IMG/VR virus record: IMGVR_UViG_3300036785_000268
Location: 1-26,657 of that record
Origin: a virus
Length of the DNA: 26,657 bases
Reading direction: 5' to 3' (one strand)
Part shown: positions 4,849-25,685 of the stretch, one piece after another
How the letters are laid out: every line of letters begins with the position of its first letter
Numbering within the stretch: position 1 is the stretch's first letter
Translations under genes and position numbers: made by a program
Notes under the pieces: generated by a model
The model's input: the letters and a program-made list of their open reading frames with translations, nothing else
What the model was told of the DNA's origin: nothing
Databases searched by the model: none

Positions 4849-6618
4849 TCACAGATCCGCCGATGCGGCGATGGTGGCGTTGCTCACGACAGAGCCGGCC
4901 GCTGTCGAGAGACACTGGAACACCAGATGACCGACATAATAAACCACACCAGTGAATGCTGAGCCGTTGGAATATGCCGCGTTGGAGATCACCACGGCCG
5001 GAACTGCCCGCATCCGTGGTATAGCAAAATCCGCATAGACGTTGACCGAGCCTGCGCCCGCATAGCCAGTGCATCGGACGCCGTCGTAGGTCTGAAAGAA
5101 CCGCAGGCAGTTGGCATAATCCATTGCCGCGCTCTGACGCTCGAACTGCGTCGCCACCGATCCCGGCTCCAGTTGCACCGTGCTGAGCGTGCCGGTGTTG
5201 AACTCGACCGTGATCGTTGTAGCCGCCGGCAGTCCAGTCACCGTCACCGGAGAGGCGGCATAGCTGCCGGCATTGACTCGCCCCTGTGCGGTGCCTGTCC
5301 ATGACAGCGTGTAGGTGCCGCCCTCAACGTCCAGTAGATCAACAATCTGCTGTAACGTGCCGGCGGTGATGGTGATGGTGGTCGAGGGGTAGGTCTGGGT
5401 GAACGTGTAGGTGCAGCCTCCAGCGCCGGCCTTCCATCGGTCATGCGCGTATGCTGCCGCAGCAAGCGCGGTGCCGCTCACATAGGTGCGCTGATTGATC
5501 CTGAAGCCGCCGTTGTGCAGCCGGTTGCGCCCGACATCGTTGAGCGCCGGCGCCACTGCCGCTGTGACCGAGGCGGGTGTCGCCGCCTGCGTCCAGCCAT
5601 TGGCGTGCCGGCCGTAGGTGTTGGCGTCGTTCGGCGCGTCGCCGATGCCGGCCGCCTGCGAGGATGCCGGCACCCACTGACTACTGTTCGGGTCGACATA
5701 CCAGAGATACATCTGGCCGCCGACGCTGTCCCACCACTGCTGGCCGGAGGTCGGTGAAGCCGGCGGCGTGTCGCTGACGGTGACCGCAGCACCGCCGCCG
5801 CTCGCCGGATGCACATGGTCCGCGCGCGCCCAGGTCGTGCCGGTGCCCACCGCTGCCGTTCCCTCGATCAGCGGCAGCGTGGTAGAGGCAACCGGCACTG
5901 AGCTCGTCAGCGCATAAGGTGCGAGCGTGCTCGTCCAGTCGGTGATGTCGCTATGCGTCAGTACCACTGTGCCGGTGCGCGTGGCCACGCTCTGCACTGG
6001 CGCTGCTGTGGCGGCATTGGTCCAGCCGGCATTGCGGCGGGCGTAATAGACGCTGTCACTCGGCGCGTCAGGAATGCCGGCCGATCCCGCCTTGCTGTCG
6101 ACGTAACCCTTGGTCGCCGCCTGCAACGTCGTGGTCGGGCTGCCGGGCAGCGTCACCGTGCCGGTGAACGTCGGGTTGGCGATCGGCGCATACGGCGCCA
6201 GCGACGTGGTCCAGTCGGTGATATCGCTGTGCGTCAGCGTCACCGTGCCGACGCGGCCCGCCACGCTCTGCACCGGCGCTGCCGCCGCCGCGCCTTTGCT
6301 ATCGACAAAGCCCAGCGGGTTGTTGGCCGGGTAGCGGTTGATATCGCTCGGATGGATGTGGTCGCCCCGGCTGTACACCTCATCCGTGCCGACCGCCGCC
6401 GTGCCGTCCATAAGCGGCAGGGTCGTGGATGGCCCTGCGCCTCCAGCTGGTCCAGGCGGTCCCGGCGGCCCGCGCCAGTCCTCACCGGTCGGATCAGGTG
6501 GCACGTCCGGCGGCTGGATGTAGCCGTCGAACGGCAGATCATCGTCGATCAGCAGCGGCGGATCGCCCGTCGTTGCCGGCGTGGCGAATACTAGGTCGTC
6601 GGTGCCCGAGCTTGCCAT
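4849..6618 (-). CDS. Collagen-like tail fibre protein with duplicated modules
   Basis: This 589-residue fibre starts at ATG 6618, sharing one base with the stop of the adaptor gene (TGATG). Residues 50-64 form a short collagen-type stretch (GPPGPPGPAGGAGPS). Two modules are duplicated: STTLPL...DHIHPS at 64-91 and again at 245-272, and APVQSV...LAPYA at 114-144 and 206-236. The DAPSDS/DAPNDA motif with a following Tyr and NAGW or NGW occurs twice. The last 170 residues hold an NRLHNGGFRINQRT...YAHDRW entry and an ATQFERQSAAMDYANCLRFF exit. That is the familiar lectin-like C-terminal domain of prophage fibres. It is probably a trimeric fibre that contacts the host surface. Confidence 0.8.
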   Translation of the reverse strand: MASSGTDDLVFATPATTGDPPLLIDDDLPFDGYIQPPDVPPDPTGEDWRGPPGPPGPAGGAGPSTTLPLMDGTAAVGTDEVYSRGDHIHPSDINRYPANNPLGFVDSKGAAAAAPVQSVAGRVGTVTLTHSDITDWTTSLAPYAPIANPTFTGTVTLPGSPTTTLQAATKGYVDSKAGSAGIPDAPSDSVYYARRNAGWTNAATAAPVQSVATRTGTVVLTHSDITDWTSTLAPYALTSSVPVASTTLPLIEGTAAVGTGTTWARADHVHPASGGGAAVTVSDTPPASPTSGQQWWDSVGGQMYLWYVDPNSSQWVPASSQAAGIGDAPNDANTYGRHANGWTQAATPASVTAAVAPALNDVGRNRLHNGGFRINQRTYVSGTALAAAAYAHDRWKAGAGGCTYTFTQTYPSTTITITAGTLQQIVDLLDVEGGTYTLSWTGTAQGRVNAGSYAASPVTVTGLPAATTITVEFNTGTLSTVQLEPGSVATQFERQSAAMDYANCLRFFQTYDGVRCTGYAGAGSVNVYADFAIPRMRAVPAVVISNAAYSNGSAFTGVVYYVGHLVFQCLSTAAGSVVSNATIAASADL

Positions 6619-7262
6619 CAGAAATACGTCGCCTGAACGGTCTCGCCGCTCGTGCCAAGTGCGATCATGCGCGCCAGCGACACGGTGGCCGCTGCGGCTG
6701 CTGCCGGATCGGCCTGACCACCGAATGATGGCGCTAGCAGGTTGGCCGCGAGCATCATGTAGGCCGTGCCAGCTGCCTCCGGGATGTCCTGGCTCGTCCA
6801 TCTGACCAGCCCGCGCATCGACAGGTCGTTATGCACTGCCATCACCGCGTCCTCGGCCTCGTCCGGCGCCTGCATCACCATCGCGACCTTGCGCACGCGG
6901 CCTTCCCACATCGCCTGCAATGCCGGTTCGACCTGCTTGCCGAACGCCGAGGCGGCATTCATCGCGGCGAGCCGCGCGTATTCCTCGCTCACCGCCTGCG
7001 GCACGGCGGTCACTGCCCAGCGCACATTGGCCTGCGCCACCAGTGCGTCATGCACCGCGTTGACGTGGGCGAGTGCCAGCGCCTGATCGGTGGCCGATGG
7101 CGTTTCGTCTGAGGCGATGACGCCGAGCATGATCAGCGCGTTGGTAGCGAGCGTGGAGGACGAGATGGTGGTCGCCAGCGGCGGGCGGTCGGCGACGGGC
7201 ACCACGGCCACGCCGAGGCGGCGTAGCGCCATTTCTCCAAGAGTTGCCACTGAGACAGTCAC
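6618..7262 (-). CDS. Probable head-tail adaptor (P22 gp4-like position), internal repeat
   Basis: The 214-residue, mostly helical protein lies between the capsid region and the fibres. The GTG start at 7262 gives the full frame; an alternative ATG follows GGAGAA about ten codons later. It contains ALAHVNAVHDALVAQANVRW followed by VSEEYARLAAMNAASAFGKQ. A second, weaker copy of the same pattern runs AVHNDLSMRGLVRWTSQDIP then AAGTAYMMLAANLLAPSFGGQ. This suggests an internal duplication of a helical unit. Alanine-rich helical adaptors that join portal and tail occupy this place in P22-like phages (gp4). I infer that role from position and fold type; the sequence does not prove it. Confidence 0.6.
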   Translation of the reverse strand: MTVSVATLGEMALRRLGVAVVPVADRPPLATTISSSTLATNALIMLGVIASDETPSATDQALALAHVNAVHDALVAQANVRWAVTAVPQAVSEEYARLAAMNAASAFGKQVEPALQAMWEGRVRKVAMVMQAPDEAEDAVMAVHNDLSMRGLVRWTSQDIPEAAGTAYMMLAANLLAPSFGGQADPAAAAAATVSLARMIALGTSGETVQATYF

Positions 7263-7398: not shown

Positions 7399-7412
7399 CC
7401 TCGTTCCTCCGG

Positions 7413-7443
7413 AACGCCGGCGGGACCATTCCCTGCCGGCGTT
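7413..7443. promoter_or_regulatory. Long inverted repeat downstream of the Gln/Ala-rich gene
   Basis: Arms AACGCCGGC and GCCGGCGTT (9 bases each) enclose a second short stem GGGA/TCCC with one bulged base and a CCAT loop. On the plus strand it is followed by TTTTCC, so it could act as a weak rightward terminator. In the leftward late transcript it is a stable hairpin between the 7462-7929 gene and the next ribosome binding site. Confidence 0.5.
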
Positions 7444-7461
7444 TTCCGTTTACCACGTCGC

Positions 7462-7929
7462 TCACTTATGCGCCGCCTGTGCGCCACCTTCCCGCGGCGG
7501 CGGCGGTTGGATCGGCACATCGGCTGGCTCGGTGATGAGCCCGGCGGCGAGGCTGGAGACGCGCGAGGCCGCACCCGCGCCAGGCGCGGCATGGGCAGCC
7601 GCGATCTGCTCGTTCGCTTTCGCCTGCGCGTCCAGTGCCGCCTGCCGTGCCTTACGCGCCTCTATCGACGGCGGTGGCCCTGACGGTGCCACCGGATCGA
7701 GCCCGAGCGCGATCAAGTGGGCATCGCGTGCCGCGGTGTTCTCCTCGATGGTCGGAGCTGCGCCGCCCCGTGCACCGAGCGAGCCATCCCCGTTGTAGTC
7801 GAGGATGATCTGCGCGCCGATCGAACCGAACGCCTGGGTCTCCCTCGCCTCGGCTGCCTGCTGCTCCTGGCGTTGCCGATCGCGCTCCTGTTCGTGCTGC
7901 TGGTGCTGGTTGTGTGGCTCTTGTGCCAT
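7462..7929 (-). CDS. Gln/Ala-rich phage protein of unknown function
   Basis: The 155-residue product begins at an ATG with AGGAG well placed upstream. The N-terminal 30 residues are charged and Gln-rich (MAQEPHNQHQQHEQERDRQ) and probably a helix. A small globular motif follows (AFGSIGAQIILDYNGDGSLG), then a long Ala/Glu-rich region with SIEARKARQAALDAQAKAN, and a proline-rich C-terminus (PIQPPPPREGGAQAAHK). The DYNGDGSLG stretch resembles a calcium-binding loop, but one motif alone is not proof. It is a late gene between the PEP-CTERM protein and the adaptor. It may be a minor head or internal virion protein. I do not recognise a family. Confidence 0.6.
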   Translation of the reverse strand: MAQEPHNQHQQHEQERDRQRQEQQAAEARETQAFGSIGAQIILDYNGDGSLGARGGAAPTIEENTAARDAHLIALGLDPVAPSGPPPSIEARKARQAALDAQAKANEQIAAAHAAPGAGAASRVSSLAAGLITEPADVPIQPPPPREGGAQAAHK

Positions 7930-7942
7930 GTGTTGTCTCCTT

Positions 7943-8491
7943 TCAGGTCCGGCGTGTGGGACGCTTCACCAACGCGATTCCGAGCATGCCGACGCCGAGC
8001 AGCGCCAAACCGGCCGGCTCCGAGGCGGGCACGCCCTGCACCGTGCTGCTGAACGAACCACTGGCCACGCCGGTCGCTTGGTTGACGGTCAATTCAAGCA
8101 GGCCGGCGGTGGGCGCGAAGCCGGTCAGCGTCAGCAATGCGGTGTCGTTGAGGCTCAGGTCGTTGCCGACAAGCGACGGCGGATCGACCTGACTAGTGAG
8201 ACTGACCGTCGCTGTCACGCCATTGTTCATCGCCACGAACAGGTTGCTGATGTTGGTAAACGGCGAAAACTCCAGCGGCGTATTCACCGTGACGCAACCG
8301 ACGCAGGTTCCGAGTGCCGTGTAGGCGCCGGTGCCGTTCACCAGATTGGCGGTTGGCGAGAACGTGACGTTGACGCCGTTGAACGTCGCGTTGCCGACCA
8401 CGTTGAGCGTATCGCCGGGTCCGATCTGCGGCAGCGCGACAGCAGGACCGGCGAGCAACAGTGCTGCGCCGGCAAGTAGGAAGGCTCTCAT
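7943..8491 (-). CDS. Secreted protein with PEP-CTERM-type sorting signal
   Basis: The start at ATG 8491 follows AGGAG by eight bases. Further in-frame upstream codons lie inside the capsid gene and are not used. Residues 1-20 form a signal peptide (MRAFLLAGAALLLAGPAVAL). The body is a Thr/Asn/Val-rich beta protein with FNGVNVTFSPTANLVNGTG and a Cys pair CVGC. The last 29 residues, VPASEPAGLALLGVGMLG then IALVKRPTRRT, give the motif-helix-basic tail architecture of PEP-CTERM proteins. Those are processed by an exosortase in the host membrane and sent to the surface or matrix. A capsid protein needs no export signal, yet the gene sits directly after the major capsid gene. I infer a host-surface function made late in infection or in the lysogen. 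Confidence 0.8.
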   Translation of the reverse strand: MRAFLLAGAALLLAGPAVALPQIGPGDTLNVVGNATFNGVNVTFSPTANLVNGTGAYTALGTCVGCVTVNTPLEFSPFTNISNLFVAMNNGVTATVSLTSQVDPPSLVGNDLSLNDTALLTLTGFAPTAGLLELTVNQATGVASGSFSSTVQGVPASEPAGLALLGVGMLGIALVKRPTRRT

Positions 8492-8507
8492 GGGGTGACT
8501 CCTTGTG

Positions 8508-9617
8508 TTACGCGTCGGCGACGGCGGTGGTGAAGATTGTAAATATGCCATTGTCGACCGGCTTGGTTGTATCCACGGTGGGATCAACGCCGAACCGCAG
8601 CTTGCCGATGCCACGGATTTCCTGGATGCCAACGCCGTGCATGTAGCCATAATCGCGGGTGTTGGTTGTCGACTTCATCCGCTGTGCCCAGGCGCAGCCA
8701 AGAGCCTGTGCGCCGCACAGGAACGAGGCCGCGACATCGATGCCGCCGGCGCCAGCCCCGGTGATGACACCGAGTTCCGGTATCTCGCGGATGATGATGC
8801 CGTCGTAAATCAGATCACCGCCGGTAAACAGCGGGTTGTCGCTGCCGCGGTTCCACGCGTACTGCAAGGCGTTGGTGATCGTCGTATCGAGCAGCAGATC
8901 GCGGAACACGAGGCTCGGCATGAAGCAGACGAACCATTCCTCGTCGTCGTTGACGGTGATCGGCCGGATGCGTGGGTTGGCGGTACGTGCCATGCGCTTT
9001 GCCAGGGTGAGGATCGCGGCGCTCATGCGATCGCCTGGCGAGGCCAGGGTGAGCAGTGCGGTGGCCATGACGCCGCTCACCGCGTTGGCCTTCTGGTGGC
9101 CGAACAAGACCCTATCGGCGTTATTCACCATCCAGGCGTTGCGCTGTGCGGCGGTCGCTGCGCCGTAGCTGACCTGCACGTTGCCGTCCGCGGTCATCGC
9201 CCCGAGCGAGGTGATGATGTCGGAGCGCATTTTCTCCAGTTCCCAGGTCATCAGCGCCTCGCGCGCTGCTTCCCTGAGATCGACCACGGACTTCTGCTCG
9301 TCCCAGTCGCTGACCGCGACCGCGTGCCGGAAGGCACTGACCACGAGGTTCAGCGAGCGGAGGTTGAGGATTTCCTCGTTGCCCTCTAGGATAGTATTCC
9401 CAGTTACCCCAGCTCCGACGAGCCTCCGCATGGCCGGGAACACGACGGTATCGCCAGCCTTGCGGGTTAAATCCTCCCGTACTTGTATTAGGGAGCCGGT
9501 AGACGTTCCCATATATTTTGAGAATTGATTCCTGCGAACGTACTCGCTAAAGAAATCAGAATCCCATATTAACGGAGTTAACCCGGCTCTAGCCGGGGTA
9601 ACGTTCATGTCCGCCAT
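8508..9617 (-). CDS. Major capsid protein, N4 gp56 family
   Basis: This 369-residue protein begins MADMNVTPARAGLTPLIWDS and starts at an ATG with AGGAA eight bases upstream. It shows the N4-gp56 capsid pattern: an N-terminal arm with FFSEYVRRNQFSKYMG, a GDTVVFPAMRRLVGAG segment, and HAVAVSDWDEQKSVVDLREA. A WFVCFMPSLVFRDLL core follows, and late motifs such as IREIPELGVITGAGAGG, FLCGAQALGCAWAQ and DYGYMHGVGIQEIRG. It would form the icosahedral shell with the scaffold encoded at 10613-11509. Between scaffold and capsid, about 1 kb of rightward genes has been inserted. Good confidence in the family. Confidence 0.88.
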   Translation of the reverse strand: MADMNVTPARAGLTPLIWDSDFFSEYVRRNQFSKYMGTSTGSLIQVREDLTRKAGDTVVFPAMRRLVGAGVTGNTILEGNEEILNLRSLNLVVSAFRHAVAVSDWDEQKSVVDLREAAREALMTWELEKMRSDIITSLGAMTADGNVQVSYGAATAAQRNAWMVNNADRVLFGHQKANAVSGVMATALLTLASPGDRMSAAILTLAKRMARTANPRIRPITVNDDEEWFVCFMPSLVFRDLLLDTTITNALQYAWNRGSDNPLFTGGDLIYDGIIIREIPELGVITGAGAGGIDVAASFLCGAQALGCAWAQRMKSTTNTRDYGYMHGVGIQEIRGIGKLRFGVDPTVDTTKPVDNGIFTIFTTAVADA

Positions 9618-9664
9618 GACTTTATTCCTGCCACTGAGGTTGAGGGGTTGCGTTTCGTTTCGGC

Positions 9665-9750
9665 AACGCCCGTAACCTCGGCGGCAGGAAACGCCCGATT
9701 TAGACAGCCCGGCGGCGGCTCAAAACGCCCGAAATTGCCTCGGCGGCAGG
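9665..9750. repeat. Direct repeats in the capsid leader region
   Basis: The unit CCTCGGCGGCAGG occurs at 9676-9688 and 9738-9750. Each copy is preceded by an AACGCCCG element (at 9665 and 9724), and a further AAACGCCCGA follows the first copy at 9689. The rest of 9618-9835 holds no gene. The repeats lie in the leader of the major capsid message and could bind a protein or fold. Confidence 0.6.
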
Positions 9751-9772
9751 CTGCGAACTGTGGTAGTTAGAC

Positions 9773-9806
9773 GGGGCTGGATGCCGGTCGCACGGCACCA
9801 AGCCCC
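9773..9806. promoter_or_regulatory. Long imperfect hairpin upstream of the HNH-AP2 gene
   Basis: Arms GGGGCT and AGCCCC enclose an inner stem TGCCG/CGGCA, joined by a 3-base step with a single mismatch. Neither strand has a U-run after it. A second small stem, CTGCT/AGCAG at 9817-9832, covers part of the AGGAG ribosome binding site of the endonuclease gene. Confidence 0.45.
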
Positions 9807-9835
9807 TGGCCAATCACTGCTGTTAGGAGCAGATC

Positions 9836-10414
9836 ATGGTTAAGCAATCCCTAGGCGGGCGTCCGACCGCAGAGCAAGTCCGAGAACTGCTCCGCTACGA
9901 TCCAGACACCGGCCAATTCCGGCGACGCTACAACGCGGGTGACGGCAAGCATGTCGGCCGAACCGGCGAGAATGTCGGAACCGTTGCCAGAACCGGCGGA
10001 ACGCAAAAGGCATATGTTGTCATCGCCCTTGGCACCATATCGCAGCGGCGTCTTGACGCTGGCGGCTTCCGAAAGCGCGCCTACAAGGCCCATCAGCTTG
10101 CGTGGCTCTACACCTACGGCTGGTGGCCGCTTGACGAAATCGATCACGTCAACGGCGATGGAACCGACAATCGCCTTGCCAACCTGCGAATTGCGTCCTC
10201 TTCCGAGAACGGTATGAACAGCAAGCGCAGAGTCGATAACAAGTCGGGCTTTAGGGGCATCACTTGGTCGAAGCGTAGTCAGCGATGGCTCGTACACATC
10301 GGACACAACGGCAAGACCCTTCATCTCGGCTTGTTCGACACGATTGATGAAGCCAAGGCTGTGCGAGAGGAAGCCGCCAGTCGCTTGCATGGGGAGTTTG
10401 CCCGCCATGAGTGA
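9836..10414 (+). CDS. HNH homing endonuclease with AP2 DNA-binding domain
   Basis: The 192-residue product starts at ATG 9836 after AGGAG seven bases upstream. The HNH_3-type core covers about residues 83-128: AHQLAWLYTYGWWP with His86, then DEIDHVNGDGTDNR with Asp103-His104 and Asn112, and LANLRIASSSENGMN. Residues 138-190 are an AP2-type domain (GFRGITWSKRSQRW, LFDTIDEAKAVREEAA), the usual target-reading part of these free-standing endonucleases. The gene is rightward, opposite to the late operon, and lies between scaffold and capsid genes. That is consistent with insertion by homing. The small stem over its ribosome binding site resembles the way some phage homing genes are kept quiet. Confidence 0.88.
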   Translation: MVKQSLGGRPTAEQVRELLRYDPDTGQFRRRYNAGDGKHVGRTGENVGTVARTGGTQKAYVVIALGTISQRRLDAGGFRKRAYKAHQLAWLYTYGWWPLDEIDHVNGDGTDNRLANLRIASSSENGMNSKRRVDNKSGFRGITWSKRSQRWLVHIGHNGKTLHLGLFDTIDEAKAVREEAASRLHGEFARHE

Positions 10415-13922: not shown

Positions 13923-14067
13923 GCAGGATCAGCACCACGATACCAAGCCCGCCGATGCCGTAGCCGTAATACGGGTATGTGCCGTAGTAGCCGCCGCGCC
14001 AGCCCCAGCCGCCACCAAGTAAAACAATAACGACAAGGACAACTAACAGGATAGCTAAGGGCGACAT
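13894..14067 (-). CDS. Small two-helix membrane protein (DUF3309-like)
   Basis: The ORF gives 57 residues from ATG 14067, with AGAGGGA upstream and a 13-base overlap with the end of the HNH gene. The layout is a first helix MSPLAILLVVLVVIVLLGG, a Gly/Tyr/Trp-rich loop (WGWRGGYYGTYPYYGYG), and a second helix LGIVVLILLILLLLGRI. This matches the small DUF3309-type proteins common in proteobacteria. Two short helices joined by an aromatic loop would also fit a holin, and no other lysis gene is seen here. The role is inferred only. It is read in the late operon just before the portal gene. Confidence 0.65.
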   Translation of the reverse strand: MSPLAILLVVLVVIVLLGGGWGWRGGYYGTYPYYGYGIGGLGIVVLILLILLLLGRI

Positions 14068-14687
14068 TGCTGCTTCCCTCTCTTTGCTAACTTCGCCTGT
14101 CGTATTGCTTCTAGGTGCGCCGCGCTCTTTGGTCTGCCCGCGATTGCTCGCATTTCCGGTGACCGGTTGCGCTCGATGAGCATCGCACGGATCTTGGCCG
14201 CATGTTCGGGTGACTTTGGGCGCGATACCACGGCGCGCATCTCTTCCGATCGATTGCGCTCCGCTGTGACGGCCCTCATTTCCGGCGATCGGTTACGGTC
14301 TGCTGTTATGGCCCGCATCTGAGGAGACCGGTTTCGGACCAGCAGGACCTTAGGAAGGTCTCCACGCAGCACATTGACACTGTGACTTACAGCTTCCACG
14401 TGATCCGGATTAACACAGCAACGCACGCGGCAAATGTGGTCCAGCTCCATACCTTCGGGGATGTCTCCGTACTTCAATGCGTAGGCGACCCTGTGCGCTG
14501 CGATGCGCCTCCCACCGATCATGACCTGCGCGTATCCTCCGTCAGTCACGCTGCCGCTCCAAGCCCAACAGCCGCTAAGCGGGATGGGATGACAACGCTC
14601 GAATAGCCAGTCGAGCGTGATTACTCGCGGATTGTGGGCGGCCATGACTGCATCCATTCCAGGGATGCCCCGAGTATAGCCCATCAT
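14055..14687 (-). CDS. HNH endonuclease with NUMOD3-like tandem repeats
   Basis: This 210-residue protein has an HNH_3-type core with AHRVAYALKYGDIPEGM (His65) and ELDHICRVRCCVNPDHVE (His84, Cys91, Asn93, His96). The C-terminal half is a run of 13-residue repeats of the form RNRSPEMRAVTAE at residues 118-156 and 172-184. They alternate with RPKSPEHAAKIRA and GRPKSAAHLEAIRQA, which look like NUMOD3 DNA-contact motifs. The ATG at 14687 has no clear ribosome binding site; Met11 and Met15 are alternatives. It is read in the same direction as the late operon and sits between two very small genes. The 3' end overlaps the membrane-protein start. Confidence 0.85.
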   Translation of the reverse strand: MMGYTRGIPGMDAVMAAHNPRVITLDWLFERCHPIPLSGCWAWSGSVTDGGYAQVMIGGRRIAAHRVAYALKYGDIPEGMELDHICRVRCCVNPDHVEAVSHSVNVLRGDLPKVLLVRNRSPQMRAITADRNRSPEMRAVTAERNRSEEMRAVVSRPKSPEHAAKIRAMLIERNRSPEMRAIAGRPKSAAHLEAIRQAKLAKRGKQQCRP

Positions 14688-17273: not shown

Positions 17274-17622
17274 CGATCACCCGCTGCGGGCGTAATTTGA
17301 GCCATTCCTCGACCGAATTGACGGGCGATGGGCCACGAATGACGTAGCCGGGGGTATCTTCGCCGGATGTTGGCGCGGCATTTGGTACTTTGCCCCAGCC
17401 GCGATCGAGCAGGATCGACGCAGCGGTGACAGCGACGCGGCTGTCCTCGTCGCTGAGTGCCAGCACGAGGCGCTCAACGGCTTGCGGCGTGTGTTCGCGG
17501 CATATCGATTCGATACCGCGAGGACGGCCGCCCGGATTGCCGGATTGGCCTTTGATCCAGCCCTTTCCGTTACCTGAGCCGCGAGCTCGGTAGATTTCTG
17601 GTTCCTGTGAGCTGTCGCTCAT
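17254..17622 (-). CDS. Terminase small subunit-like (DUF5681) protein
   Basis: The start at ATG 17622 overlaps the NusG-like gene as ATGA. The 122-residue product carries WIKGQSGNPGGRPRG at about residues 22-36, the signature of DUF5681 proteins, which sit next to large terminase genes in many alphaproteobacterial phages. After this comes a helical segment (SICREHTPQAVERLVLALS, VAVTAASILLDRGWGK) that would contact DNA or form the ring, then a Pro-rich tail with NSVEEWLKLRPQR. Small terminases recognise the packaging start. Position and motif agree; function is inferred. Confidence 0.75.
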   Translation of the reverse strand: MSDSSQEPEIYRARGSGNGKGWIKGQSGNPGGRPRGIESICREHTPQAVERLVLALSDEDSRVAVTAASILLDRGWGKVPNAAPTSGEDTPGYVIRGPSPVNSVEEWLKLRPQRVIDADVHK

Positions 17623-18206
17623 GAGCGCTCCGAGAGCCACGCGACGGGTGCCTGAACCTGGCGCAGTGCGCCGAACAGGAGCACGGCGAGGGTAGCGGTA
17701 TCGCGGTGGGTGGCGAGGACCACGGCTGGATGGCCTCGTAGCGGGCCTAGGGCGAGGCTACACGGCGCTCCAGGCGTCCAGGCGGCATCGGTGTGCGTCC
17801 AGGCGCCCAAAGCCATCCTGACGGCCTCCAAGGCGTCGGAAGAGGCATACTGTATCTGGCTACCACATTTGACCAGATCGCGGACGCCTGGAGTGTCGCG
17901 GATGGGCGACCAGGAGGCTTGCGAGGCGTCGAAGGCGACGAACAGGTAACGCGGGAAGGCTGGGACTTCGACGCGGTGGCGCATGGAGCGGATGACGGGG
18001 TCGCGGCGGAAGGCGACGGTGAGCGGGAGGAAGGTGGTGTAGCCCTGGCGGCGCAGGCCCTGCTCTGCCCAGCGCTCGGCTTGTGGGTGGGTGTAGCAGC
18101 AGGCCCAGCGAGGAATGCTGTGGCACGGCGCGTCATTTCGCTCCTGGCGAGATGTGGCCGTTATGCGACTACCTAACCGCACGGCGGGTTGTGCGTCAAG
18201 CGGCAT
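17619..18206 (-). CDS. NusG/RfaH-like transcription antiterminator
   Basis: Residues 33-115 of the frame form a NusG N-terminal (NGN) domain: RWACCYTHPQAERWAEQGL, then QGYTTFLPLTV and the conserved VPAFPRYLFVAFD, then a PGVRDLVKCG strand. Residues 145-187 resemble a KOW domain (GAPCSLALGPLRGHPAVVL). NusG paralogues such as RfaH ride on RNA polymerase and let it pass terminators. The gene stands at the head of the terminase and virion operon, coupled by ATGA. That fits a late-gene antiterminator. The annotated start at 18206 is weak: no ribosome binding site and rare codons up to about residue 22. A strong AGGAG-ATG at 18136 is in another frame, so the true start is unsettled. Confidence 0.75.
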   Translation of the reverse strand: MPLDAQPAVRLGSRITATSRQERNDAPCHSIPRWACCYTHPQAERWAEQGLRRQGYTTFLPLTVAFRRDPVIRSMRHRVEVPAFPRYLFVAFDASQASWSPIRDTPGVRDLVKCGSQIQYASSDALEAVRMALGAWTHTDAAWTPGAPCSLALGPLRGHPAVVLATHRDTATLAVLLFGALRQVQAPVAWLSERS

Positions 18207-23036: not shown

Positions 23037-23308
23037 GTCAGATCCCCGCTCTTGAACGGCTGCGCGGTGGTGCGCTCGGCCCGCGCCGCGGCACATTCGG
23101 CCCGCAACGTGGCCCGCGCGGCGGCAGCATCCTCCGCCATCACCCGCACCAGCCGGCGCTCACGGCACACGCCGCGCTCCTGCACCTTGTGCAGCACCGC
23201 GCTCGCCGTGCGGTCCAGCGCCGCGGCGATGTCCGCCAGCCGCATGCCGCCGGCATACCAGCGCAGCGCGTCACGGACCTCCGCAGCAGTCCAGGGCCGC
23301 CCGTTCAT
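23030..23308 (-). CDS. HTH (GcrA/Myb-like) DNA-binding protein
   Basis: The start at ATG 23308 overlaps the methyltransferase stop as ATGA. The 92-residue product has a compact HTH, RPWTAAEVRDALRWYAGGM then LADIAAALDRTASAVLHKV. The W-T-x-x-E-V start and the IAAALxRTxxAVxxKV recognition helix are those of SANT/GcrA-like domains. A basic, alanine-rich helix follows (VRVMAEDAAAARATLRAE) and the end is FKSGDLTW. It might regulate phage genes or direct a methyltransferase. It differs from the second GcrA-like protein at 25682-26131, which has a Cys/His tail. Confidence 0.65.
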   Translation of the reverse strand: MNGRPWTAAEVRDALRWYAGGMRLADIAAALDRTASAVLHKVQERGVCRERRLVRVMAEDAAAARATLRAECAAARAERTTAQPFKSGDLTW

Positions 23309-25080
23309 TCGGCTGCCTCCGCGAGCCACGCCAGCAGCGGCGCATCGTCCACCACGCGGGCGTCAGCCATCGCGCCATACGCCGGGTTCAGCTCGATGCC
23401 GATCGCGTCGCGCTGCAGGCGGTCACAGACGAGGGCCACGGTCCCCGCGCCCATGAATGGATCGAGAACGACACAAGGACGGACCTCGGCGTCGCACGCA
23501 CAGCCAGGGGACCAGCCGGTGGTGCGCACGTCATTCGTACCGCGTGGCACCCCATCCCAGCCGTTGCTGGCGTCCATCGGCTTCTGATTGAACGCGCCTT
23601 TAATGCCCTTCGCCAACGATACATCGGGCTGCGGCACGAATGTCTTCTCTGTCTGCCTTCGCCACGGCGCGCCGCACTGCGCGCAGCAGCCGCGCTCCGA
23701 CGTGCCGGCACGGATGCACCGTTCAACGAGTGCCGTAGGCATGGTGGCAAAGTGTGAGCCTGGGAAAGCCTGCGTCGGAATTGACCAGACATTCCGTAGG
23801 TTTCTCGTTTGTATTCCGTCACGGAATGATGTATCTATCTCGTTATGACCAAGCTTGAACTCGCCTACATCGCCGGCATTATTGATGCCGATGGCTCGAT
23901 CTCTATTAGCTACGACAAGGAACCCATCAGCAAAGGCAGATCGCCACGCTTCTCTGAGATGGTCGCCATCCGGCAATGCGACCCGGAGGCTATTCAACTC
24001 ATCCAAAAACTGTTCGGCGGTAATATCAGGATCGGTAAACCTACCACTCTGCGCGGCCGCCTGACTTATGACTGGGCCGCCACCAACCTCAAGGCAAGAG
24101 CTTTCATCCGAGCCATCTATCCGTTTCTGCGTGTCAAGCGGAAACAGGCTGATTTGGTCCTGCGTCTTGGCAAGATCAAAGATCATGGACGCTATGCGAA
24201 CACCTATCTTGCGGACGCGGCTGTCCCAGGATTCGGCGGCACAAGGATGATCAGACGCAGGTATGTGAAGCCGGAAGTCATCGCCGAATGTAAGGCGCTT
24301 GTCCTCGAAGTCAGACTTCTGACCGACTCGCGCTTGCGTAACCCGTTCGGCGACGGCGACGGCATCATAGAAATATCTAGCTGACTTCGTGAGCATAAAC
24401 ACATGCTCATGCGCCGACGTTGGCCGATCAGTACATGACTCAGGCATCGGGTTCGGCTTGGCCCAGATGATGTCAGACCGTAACCACCACCCGTCGGCCT
24501 GCAACGCGAGCGCCAGCCGCGCCGGCATCATCAGCAGGTTCTTGGCCGGCAATGAGCGATCGACCCGGCGCTCTGCATTAACGAACCGAGACGGCTGAGA
24601 GCGCGCGTTCTGCCAGCCGTCCGTGAAGTCGCGCATCCGCTCTCCACTGTTACCGCCGCTGTAGCTATCCCCCATATTGACCCAGCACACGCCATCGGGG
24701 CGCAGCACACGGCGCACCTCCCGGAACACCCCCACCATCGTGGCGAGGTATTCGTCCGGCGTGCGCTCCAGCCCGATCTGCCGGTCAATGCGCCGCGCAC
24801 CGCACTTGCCGCAGATGTCGCGGAACGGCGTCGCCTGTGCGCCGACGCTGCGGTGGTGCGTTTCCTCGCTCCTGCCCCCGGTCGATGCGCCTAGCGTGCT
24901 GGACTTGAAGCCGCCCATCTGGCCGCTATGCCCACACGCCGCGTCGCCGCCTTCCCACGTGCCGGTCTGGTAGTCCCTCAAACCAAAGTAGGGAGGAGAG
25001 GTAACAACACAATGCACGCTGGCATCCGGCAGGCTGGGCAGGATGTCGCGTGCGTCGCCGTGCAGCAGCTTCGTGCTCAC
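23305..25080 (-). CDS. Beta-class DNA methyltransferase containing an antisense homing gene
   Basis: The start is GTG 25080 in a GTGA overlap; codons further upstream are antisense to another gene. The 591-residue frame has the catalytic TSPPY motif at residues 27-31 (VVTSPPYFGLRDY). Cys clusters (ICGKCG, CCAQCG, CACD) may bind zinc. Then come DGWWLRSDIIWAKPNPMPE and HEHVFMLTKSARYFYDA. The SAM-binding loop DPFMGAGTV at about 540-548 and AIGIELNPAY are near the end. Motif IV before motif I marks beta-class N4-cytosine or N6-adenine enzymes. Residues about 246-418 correspond to the antisense of a homing endonuclease gene, with no stop codon. The typical family has only a short variable loop there, followed by a segment such as RNLRNVWSIPTQAFPGSHFA. 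Confidence 0.85.
   Translation of the reverse strand: MSTKLLHGDARDILPSLPDASVHCVVTSPPYFGLRDYQTGTWEGGDAACGHSGQMGGFKSSTLGASTGGRSEETHHRSVGAQATPFRDICGKCGARRIDRQIGLERTPDEYLATMVGVFREVRRVLRPDGVCWVNMGDSYSGGNSGERMRDFTDGWQNARSQPSRFVNAERRVDRSLPAKNLLMMPARLALALQADGWWLRSDIIWAKPNPMPESCTDRPTSAHEHVFMLTKSARYFYDAVAVAERVTQARVGQKSDFEDKRLTFGDDFRLHIPASDHPCAAESWDSRVRKIGVRIASMIFDLAKTQDQISLFPLDTQKRIDGSDESSCLEVGGGPVISQAAAQSGRFTDPDITAEQFLDELNSLRVALPDGDHLREAWRSAFADGFLVVANRDRAIGINNAGDVGEFKLGHNEIDTSFRDGIQTRNLRNVWSIPTQAFPGSHFATMPTALVERCIRAGTSERGCCAQCGAPWRRQTEKTFVPQPDVSLAKGIKGAFNQKPMDASNGWDGVPRGTNDVRTTGWSPGCACDAEVRPCVVLDPFMGAGTVALVCDRLQRDAIGIELNPAYGAMADARVVDDAPLLAWLAEAAE
23813..23827. repeat. 15-base palindrome beside the homing endonuclease gene
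   Basis: ATTCCGTCACGGAAT is a perfect dyad around one central base, 17 bases before the endonuclease ATG. Another ATTCCGT lies at 23791. It falls at the edge between inserted and conserved methyltransferase sequence and could mark the insertion junction, a cut site or a repressor site. Confidence 0.55.
23845..24384 (+). CDS. LAGLIDADG homing endonuclease, antisense within methyltransferase
   Basis: This 179-residue rightward ORF carries one LAGLIDADG motif, LELAYIAGIIDADGSISI at residues 3-20, so it would act as a homodimer. The rest fits the family: MVAIRQCDPEAIQLIQKLFG, RGRLTYDWAATNLKARAF, AIYPFLRVKRKQADLVL. The gene lies completely inside the leftward methyltransferase frame, and its last 14 or so codons are antisense to the conserved FYDAVAVAE segment. 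No clear ribosome binding site precedes the ATG. GC content is visibly lower than in flanking genes, a sign of recent transfer. It presumably cuts methyltransferase alleles that lack the insert. Confidence 0.88.
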   Translation: MTKLELAYIAGIIDADGSISISYDKEPISKGRSPRFSEMVAIRQCDPEAIQLIQKLFGGNIRIGKPTTLRGRLTYDWAATNLKARAFIRAIYPFLRVKRKQADLVLRLGKIKDHGRYANTYLADAAVPGFGGTRMIRRRYVKPEVIAECKALVLEVRLLTDSRLRNPFGDGDGIIEISS

Positions 25081-25685
25081 GGTGCCGCCTCCGCTGCAAT
25101 CGCCAGCAGCAGGTCGCGAAACGCCGGCGGCGTCGCGTTTCTGATCTCGGTCTTTCGCTTCCCGCCAGCCATCGCGACCAGCCCGACGCGCCGCGCCTTC
25201 TCGTAGCCGTGCCGCTCCAGCATCACCGGATCGAGCCGCTGCTCGCCCTCGCCCCAGCGCAGCGCCGGCGGCTCGCACCCGACCGCGTAGAGCCAAGATG
25301 CCTTGCGCGCAGAATGGCCGTAGAAGCCCTGCTCGACGCGGCAGCACCAGCCGCCACTCACATCCATCTGCCACCCCTCAGGCGGCGGCCAGGGCAGCCC
25401 ATGGGCCTGCCACGCATGGCTGTAGGCGGGATGCTCCAGCACACCGCCCCAGCGCCGCACCGCGGCCAGTGCAGCAGCGAAACAGCCACCATCGTCGCCA
25501 AGCGTGCGCGTGTGCGGAGCAGCCGGACCACCATGGGCGAAACGGCCCCAGCGTTGACATGGCGGATGCGCCACGACTGGCCACGGCCCGTCATAGCGGC
25601 GCGCGTCGCGTTCCTCCGGCCACAGATCCACGCCGTCGATCCCGGCATAGACGCCATCGCGTTGCACGTAGAGCGCGGCGATCAC
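25077..25685 (-). CDS. PPC-motif protein, possible methyltransferase relative
   Basis: The GTG at 25685 overlaps the GcrA-like stop as GTGA and fits the natural N-terminus VIAALYVQRDGVYAGIDGVD. The 202-residue product contains VVAHPPCQRWGRFAHGG, a loop resembling the PPCQ active site of C5-cytosine methyltransferases. It is followed by RWGGVLEHPAYSHAWQA and a WCCRVEQGFYGHSARKASWL segment. The usual SAM-binding FxGxG entry is missing. I know the HPPCxxWG family from phages as uncharacterised proteins. Placed next to a true methyltransferase, it may modify DNA or nucleotides or may be a degenerate paralogue. Confidence 0.6.
   Translation of the reverse strand: MIAALYVQRDGVYAGIDGVDLWPEERDARRYDGPWPVVAHPPCQRWGRFAHGGPAAPHTRTLGDDGGCFAAALAAVRRWGGVLEHPAYSHAWQAHGLPWPPPEGWQMDVSGGWCCRVEQGFYGHSARKASWLYAVGCEPPALRWGEGEQRLDPVMLERHGYEKARRVGLVAMAGGKRKTEIRNATPPAFRDLLLAIAAEAAP

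Follow-up and report, generated by a model that had tools for sequence, protein, structure and literature searches.

A PEP-CTERM-type exported protein gene directly behind the major capsid gene of a probable soil phage

Introduction

Why would a tailed phage place, directly behind its major capsid gene, a gene whose product carries the terminal features of a protein sorted to the bacterial cell surface? In Bacteria, PEP-CTERM proteins carry signal peptides and co-occur with EpsH (PMC1569441). The window, that is the whole stretch of DNA analysed (26,657 nt), is a 26.7-kb fragment of a phage genome, and a preliminary description had singled out one of its genes as encoding such a protein. Here, the context of this gene, the architecture of its product, its homologues and its possible role in infection are considered.

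Gene position and transcription context

The gene and the neighbours relevant to its position are as follows:

7943..8491 (-): PEP-CTERM-type exported protein gene, 182 aa, stop included
8499..8503 (-): Shine-Dalgarno sequence AGGAG
8508..9617 (-): major capsid protein (MCP) gene, directly upstream (PF13252, E 1.6e-51; PHROG 334)
7462..7929 (-): gene without assigned function that flanks the variable junction opposite the capsid gene; directly behind the capsid gene in most relatives
6618..7262 (-): adaptor-position gene, the second conserved gene behind the junction (synteny with Pam5)

The product of 8508-9617(-) is a Phage_capsid_3 protein in Pfam and a major head protein in PHROG, and further neighbours of the PEP-CTERM gene encode a P22-type portal, a terminase, a head-closure protein and tail fibres (Pfam, PHROG). 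The gap between the MCP stop codon and the start of ORF 7943-8491(-) is 16 nt and AGGAG stands 7 nt ahead of the ATG, confirming the preliminary description on two points, namely that the gene directly follows the major capsid gene and that AGGAG precedes its start. Within positions 7400-10000, no sigma-70-like promoter was found on the strand of the gene and terminator-like matches were no more numerous than expected by chance. Furthermore, no sigma-54 site lies close to the PEP-CTERM gene, the window containing three in total vs 1.25 by chance. With its 16-nt gap, its own Shine-Dalgarno sequence and no promoter-like site nearby, ORF 7943-8491(-) reads as a member of the late operon. Most likely, the virus is a soil phage with a tail and a P22-type portal, and the gene an optional (moron-type) late gene.

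Architecture of the encoded protein

Three parts can be distinguished in the protein:

8435..8491 (-): predicted Sec signal peptide, residues 1-19, cleavage after AVA (A17/A19 invariant; hydropathy 2.15)
8033..8434 (-): mature core, residues 20-153, with an invariant CxxC (C63, C66); predicted small beta-sheet domain
7946..8032 (-): PEP-CTERM-like tail with EP motif (PASEP), hydrophobic helix and basic end (PF07589, residues 157-177)

The N terminus, MRAFLLAGAALLLAGPAVA-LPQ, contains a predicted signal peptide with a basic n-region, a hydrophobic stretch and an AVA cleavage site. Together with the invariance of A17 and A19 in 11 homologues, these features support the clean signal peptide claimed earlier and, by a heuristic and the conservation of both alanines, the protein begins as PEP-CTERM proteins do. 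The C terminus reads VPASEPAG-LALLGVGMLGIALV-KRPTRRT, in which a 16-residue hydrophobic stretch with a mean hydropathy of 2.35 is followed by KRPTRRT at the very end. The proposed arrangement of VPASEPAG, helix and basic tail is therefore present as an architecture, but its motif deviates, as the near-invariant Pro-Glu-Pro is S-E-P in the window copy (first P replaced by S) whereas most homologues have PEP. The PF07589 score of the 182-aa protein is below the cut-off (16.1 bits, E 0.013; cut-off 20.7), with 19.9 bits (E 4e-5) being reached in a six-frame search of the window record. Judged by its sequence, the window tail is a weak variant of the PEP-CTERM tail, and the replacement of PEP by PASEP and the missed Pfam cut-off imply that the window protein may be a poor exosortase substrate.

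In a two-ended test, a simple heuristic for both protein ends, ORF 7943-8491(-) was the only one of 104 window ORFs of at least 90 aa to pass (0.05 expected), and among 2,569 ORFs in 80 loci sharing the capsid protein the test was passed by its ortholog only (0.08 expected).

Core residues 20-153 have no match in Pfam, NCBIfam or PDB sequences. The NCBIfam subfamilies THxN and PepA were rejected as an identity, as their best scores are tail-derived and disappear when the core is searched alone (THxN vs the full 182-aa protein: 22.7 bits, cut-off 85). An earlier AlphaFold2 model was poor (pLDDT 38); a second, built with 11 sequences, reached a pLDDT of 70 (about 80 in the core) and predicts a small beta-sheet domain plus a C-terminal helix. 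A fold search with the second model returned middling barrel-like matches (Z < 8) and no functional lead, and these matches may just reflect a common arrangement. Foldseek matches to herpesvirus UL4 were discarded for their low TM-scores.

Homologues and selection on the core

Relatives of the 182-aa protein, here termed family A, occur in IMG/VR contigs. Eleven aligned homologues with 38-90% identity to the window protein keep the tripartite architecture. The residues invariant among them include A17, A19, C63, C66, E158, P159 and glycines of the helix, and residues 2-16 and the hydrophobic tail diverge with their character retained. The core of the window protein is 73-96% identical to that of six homologues. 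The tail motif is VPEP, APEP or TPEP in most homologues, VAEP in L011, VTEP in L203 and PASEP in the window, variants which mark the EP pair as the conserved part of the motif. With 23.8 bits, the closest relative, which is the ortholog carried by sister phage G001 (= L002/L007), exceeds the PF07589 cut-off of 20.7, and so does the distant homologue L196 (25.5 bits). Pairwise core dN/dS among seven copies is 0.06-0.36, values that are indications because dS is high in this comparison, and they point to purifying selection on the core.

Searches beyond IMG/VR returned no relatives. None of the 182-aa protein was found in the known phage and plasmid collections, where the core gave chance matches only at E up to 10, and no copy was detected in 84,980 species genomes of Bacteria and Archaea by two pattern scans, which reach close relatives only.

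The position of the family gene differs between phages. In L008 and L009, genes for tail and internal virion proteins precede it. In L010, and similarly in L003 by inspection, it lies before the terminase and is followed by a GcrA-like HTH gene; in L010, a P22-coat capsid/P22-portal set adjoins. Homologues are also present in unrelated phages with a different or undetected capsid, such as L010. Four genomes hold two family-A copies 2-4 kb apart, among them L221 with frame breaks.

A variable junction behind the capsid gene

The junction was compared across 80 IMG/VR loci with the same capsid protein at 76-98%. In most of these, the capsid gene is followed by about 100-300 nt, the homologue of 7462-7929 and then the homologue of 6618-7262. 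The preliminary description had suggested looking for the same gene beside capsid genes in related phages; this search found it at the junction in one of the 80 loci (L021, sister phage G001), several of which have contigs that end ahead of the junction. Other genes occupy the site elsewhere, with identities assigned by Pfam for L045 and L044 and by inspection for the remaining loci:

HNH endonuclease gene (over a dozen loci): L025, L034-L037, L044, L049, L053, L057, L065, L074, L078, L081, L096, L097, L099
GDSL-lipase-like gene: L045, L084, with L046 listed alongside

Since the junction is mostly empty or filled with HNH or GDSL-lipase genes, it is, across the loci compared, a variable insertion site at which the PEP gene is optional cargo.

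Endonuclease genes and introns were also noted in the window and its relatives. A LAGLIDADG endonuclease ORF (PF00961; 23845-24384(+)) is embedded in antisense orientation in an open N6/N4 methyltransferase ORF (23305-25374(-)), and the relative in L008 has no sequence matching this stretch. HNH_3 endonuclease genes are found at 9836-10414(+) and 14055-14687(-); the former runs opposite to the late genes and also encodes an AP2-like domain. Group I introns (Rfam RF00028) occur at two different places in the major capsid gene of relatives (L044:6954-7173, L041:3677-3899 and L043:400-613).

Other PEP-CTERM genes in viral contigs

A strict degenerate pattern, VPEPA-x-LALLG-x-GL, with its position within the ORF left free, matched in 53 viral contigs, and each of the 53 matches fell at the C terminus of an ORF, with a basic tail in nearly all cases and a signal-like start in nearly all complete ones. 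In at least 21 of the 53 contigs, terminase, portal or capsid genes belong to the window's clade; the PEP-CTERM genes there mostly differ in core, with about 212 or 240 aa, and in location, for example between portal and scaffold. The cores of these other families have no NCBIfam match, and alike signal peptides, MK(R/H)..L..IVAGA.FFH, are found on different cores. Core families were labelled by sequence inspection; the similarity of the tails makes automatic clustering loose. PF07589 scores in 6 of 80 capsid-clade records (4 of 9 of those of at least 40 kb) and in 1 of 39 records found via the L010 terminase. Over all searches, about 80 distinct contigs were obtained, a lower bound given the strict patterns.

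Two further observations concern these phages. Two PEP-CTERM matches lie near each other in one phage record (G136:24540-25393 and G137:29168-30006), and a NusG-like gene (window 17619-18206(-)) recurs in many PEP-bearing phages.

We see about an even chance that several soil-phage groups, mostly integrase-free, systematically use host-exosortase substrates as late exported effectors, built on several unrelated cores with sorting ends that resemble each other, and at times encoded twice in a genome.

Dependence on the host

None of 29 phage records encodes an exosortase (PF09721), so that a host exosortase would have to act on these proteins. With dozens of soil phage contigs carrying PEP-CTERM genes, the host sorting machine is probably used for surface placement. 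The earlier proposal of an exported PEP-CTERM protein, here in a phage late operon, is supported, and the 29 exosortase-free records indicate that it would depend on host exosortase.

Hints at the host differ between sources. GcrA is an alphaproteobacterial family, and GcrA-like genes are found among the neighbours; L196 is weakly similar to Roseomonas PEP-CTERM proteins (E 0.07); and the named phages with the closest capsids have Pseudanabaena as their host.

Proposed function and alternatives

The phage protein is read here, with a probability of roughly 0.6, as a late, exported, host-processed surface product, one that might mask a receptor or exopolysaccharide and exclude other phages. Late in infection, the protein would cross the inner membrane by Sec and be retained in the membrane by its C-terminal helix, whereupon host exosortase would cleave at the EP motif and hand the core over to the surface of the cell or to exopolysaccharide. 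More tentatively, the core might then alter the dying cell and its debris at their surface, with masking of a receptor or exopolysaccharide as the most likely outcome; released progeny would then not be lost to infected cells or fragments, and the altered surface might keep other phages out. Overexpression of PepA in a bacterium moves exopolysaccharide from the soluble to the bound fraction, which indicates that a PEP-CTERM protein can alter the cell surface (PMC9850573). For phages of mostly virulent appearance, a putative masking role requires the fewest assumptions; counting against a surface protein is that most phages with the same capsid do not have the PEP gene.

Different cores with similar signal peptides and tail ends, as if the sorting ends mattered most, would also be expected of an exosortase decoy, a bulk late protein that occupies the host exosortase, blocks maturation of host PEP-CTERM proteins, loosens the matrix and so lets progeny spread. 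The late operon position agrees with such a decoy, but in family A conservation is higher in the core than in the signal and tail regions. This suggests a role for the core itself outside the cell, and we consider a decoy unlikely. The purifying selection indicated for the core likewise argues against recent capture of a host gene that does nothing for the phage. Capture would be in line with PEP-CTERM proteins being typical of environmental bacteria (PMC1569441) and with the Roseomonas resemblance of L196; however, several divergent phage homologues exist, the gene is present repeatedly and at times twice per genome, and the species-genome scans gave no close copy, so that we consider capture very unlikely.

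The lysogenic conversion considered in the preliminary description, in which a prophage displays the protein on the lysogen, could draw on the tyrosine integrase found in two of 27 records and in two of the 20 near-full-length PEP-bearing ones. The other 18 of these 20 have none, nor do 8 of 9 near-full-length capsid-clade records or the window record (a fragment); six records are without a resolvase, and the gene stands in a late operon, leaving lysogenic conversion unsupported and quite improbable. A virion decoration or cement protein would be suggested by the Pseudanabaena phages Pam1 and Pam5, in which the capsid gene directly precedes the cement gene, and by the small beta-rich structure model. 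The likeness ends with gene position, as the window protein has export signals at both ends, and its gene is optional at a variable junction, absent from nearly all same-capsid phages and found, away from the capsid gene, in phages without the window's capsid. The gene is thus unlinked to the capsid, and we give a cement role hardly any credence.

Relation to known systems

Like bacterial PEP-CTERM/exosortase (EpsH) substrates (PMC1569441), the protein combines a signal peptide and a unique core without Pfam match with a C-terminal EP motif, a hydrophobic helix and a basic end. Unlike these, it is phage-encoded directly behind a capsid gene, has no sigma-54 site near and carries PASEP; the bacterial genes form single-gene operons behind a large intergenic region, which the phage gene does not. 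With PepA of floc formers (PMC9850573) it shares export signals and a presumed surface or exopolysaccharide destination, but the core is unrelated by profile and the NCBIfam match disappears once the tail is removed. No description of a phage-encoded PEP-CTERM protein was found in the literature searched, most subscription journals lying outside it, so that phage use of the host sorting system, earlier called little described, is apparently undescribed within that literature. The T5 Llp lipoprotein is a phage surface-modifying moron. As with Llp, the window protein is encoded by a phage, is predicted to be exported and would act on the host surface; it differs in carrying an exosortase tag instead of a lipobox and in its place in the late operon. 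The parts are of known kinds; their combination and recurrence in phages appear to be new.

Implications

In environmental Gram-negatives, PEP-CTERM proteins and exosortase are part of exopolysaccharide and surface biology, and most of these proteins have no known role. If soil phages do systematically deploy such substrates, these would make up a class of surface effectors with which phages hijack PEP-CTERM/exopolysaccharide sorting. As phages would keep their own substrates without an exosortase, the pathway would matter in phage-host conflict. In addition, phage PEP-CTERM proteins would offer compact natural substrates for exosortase work, and their genes would hint at exosortase-bearing hosts of uncultured soil phages.
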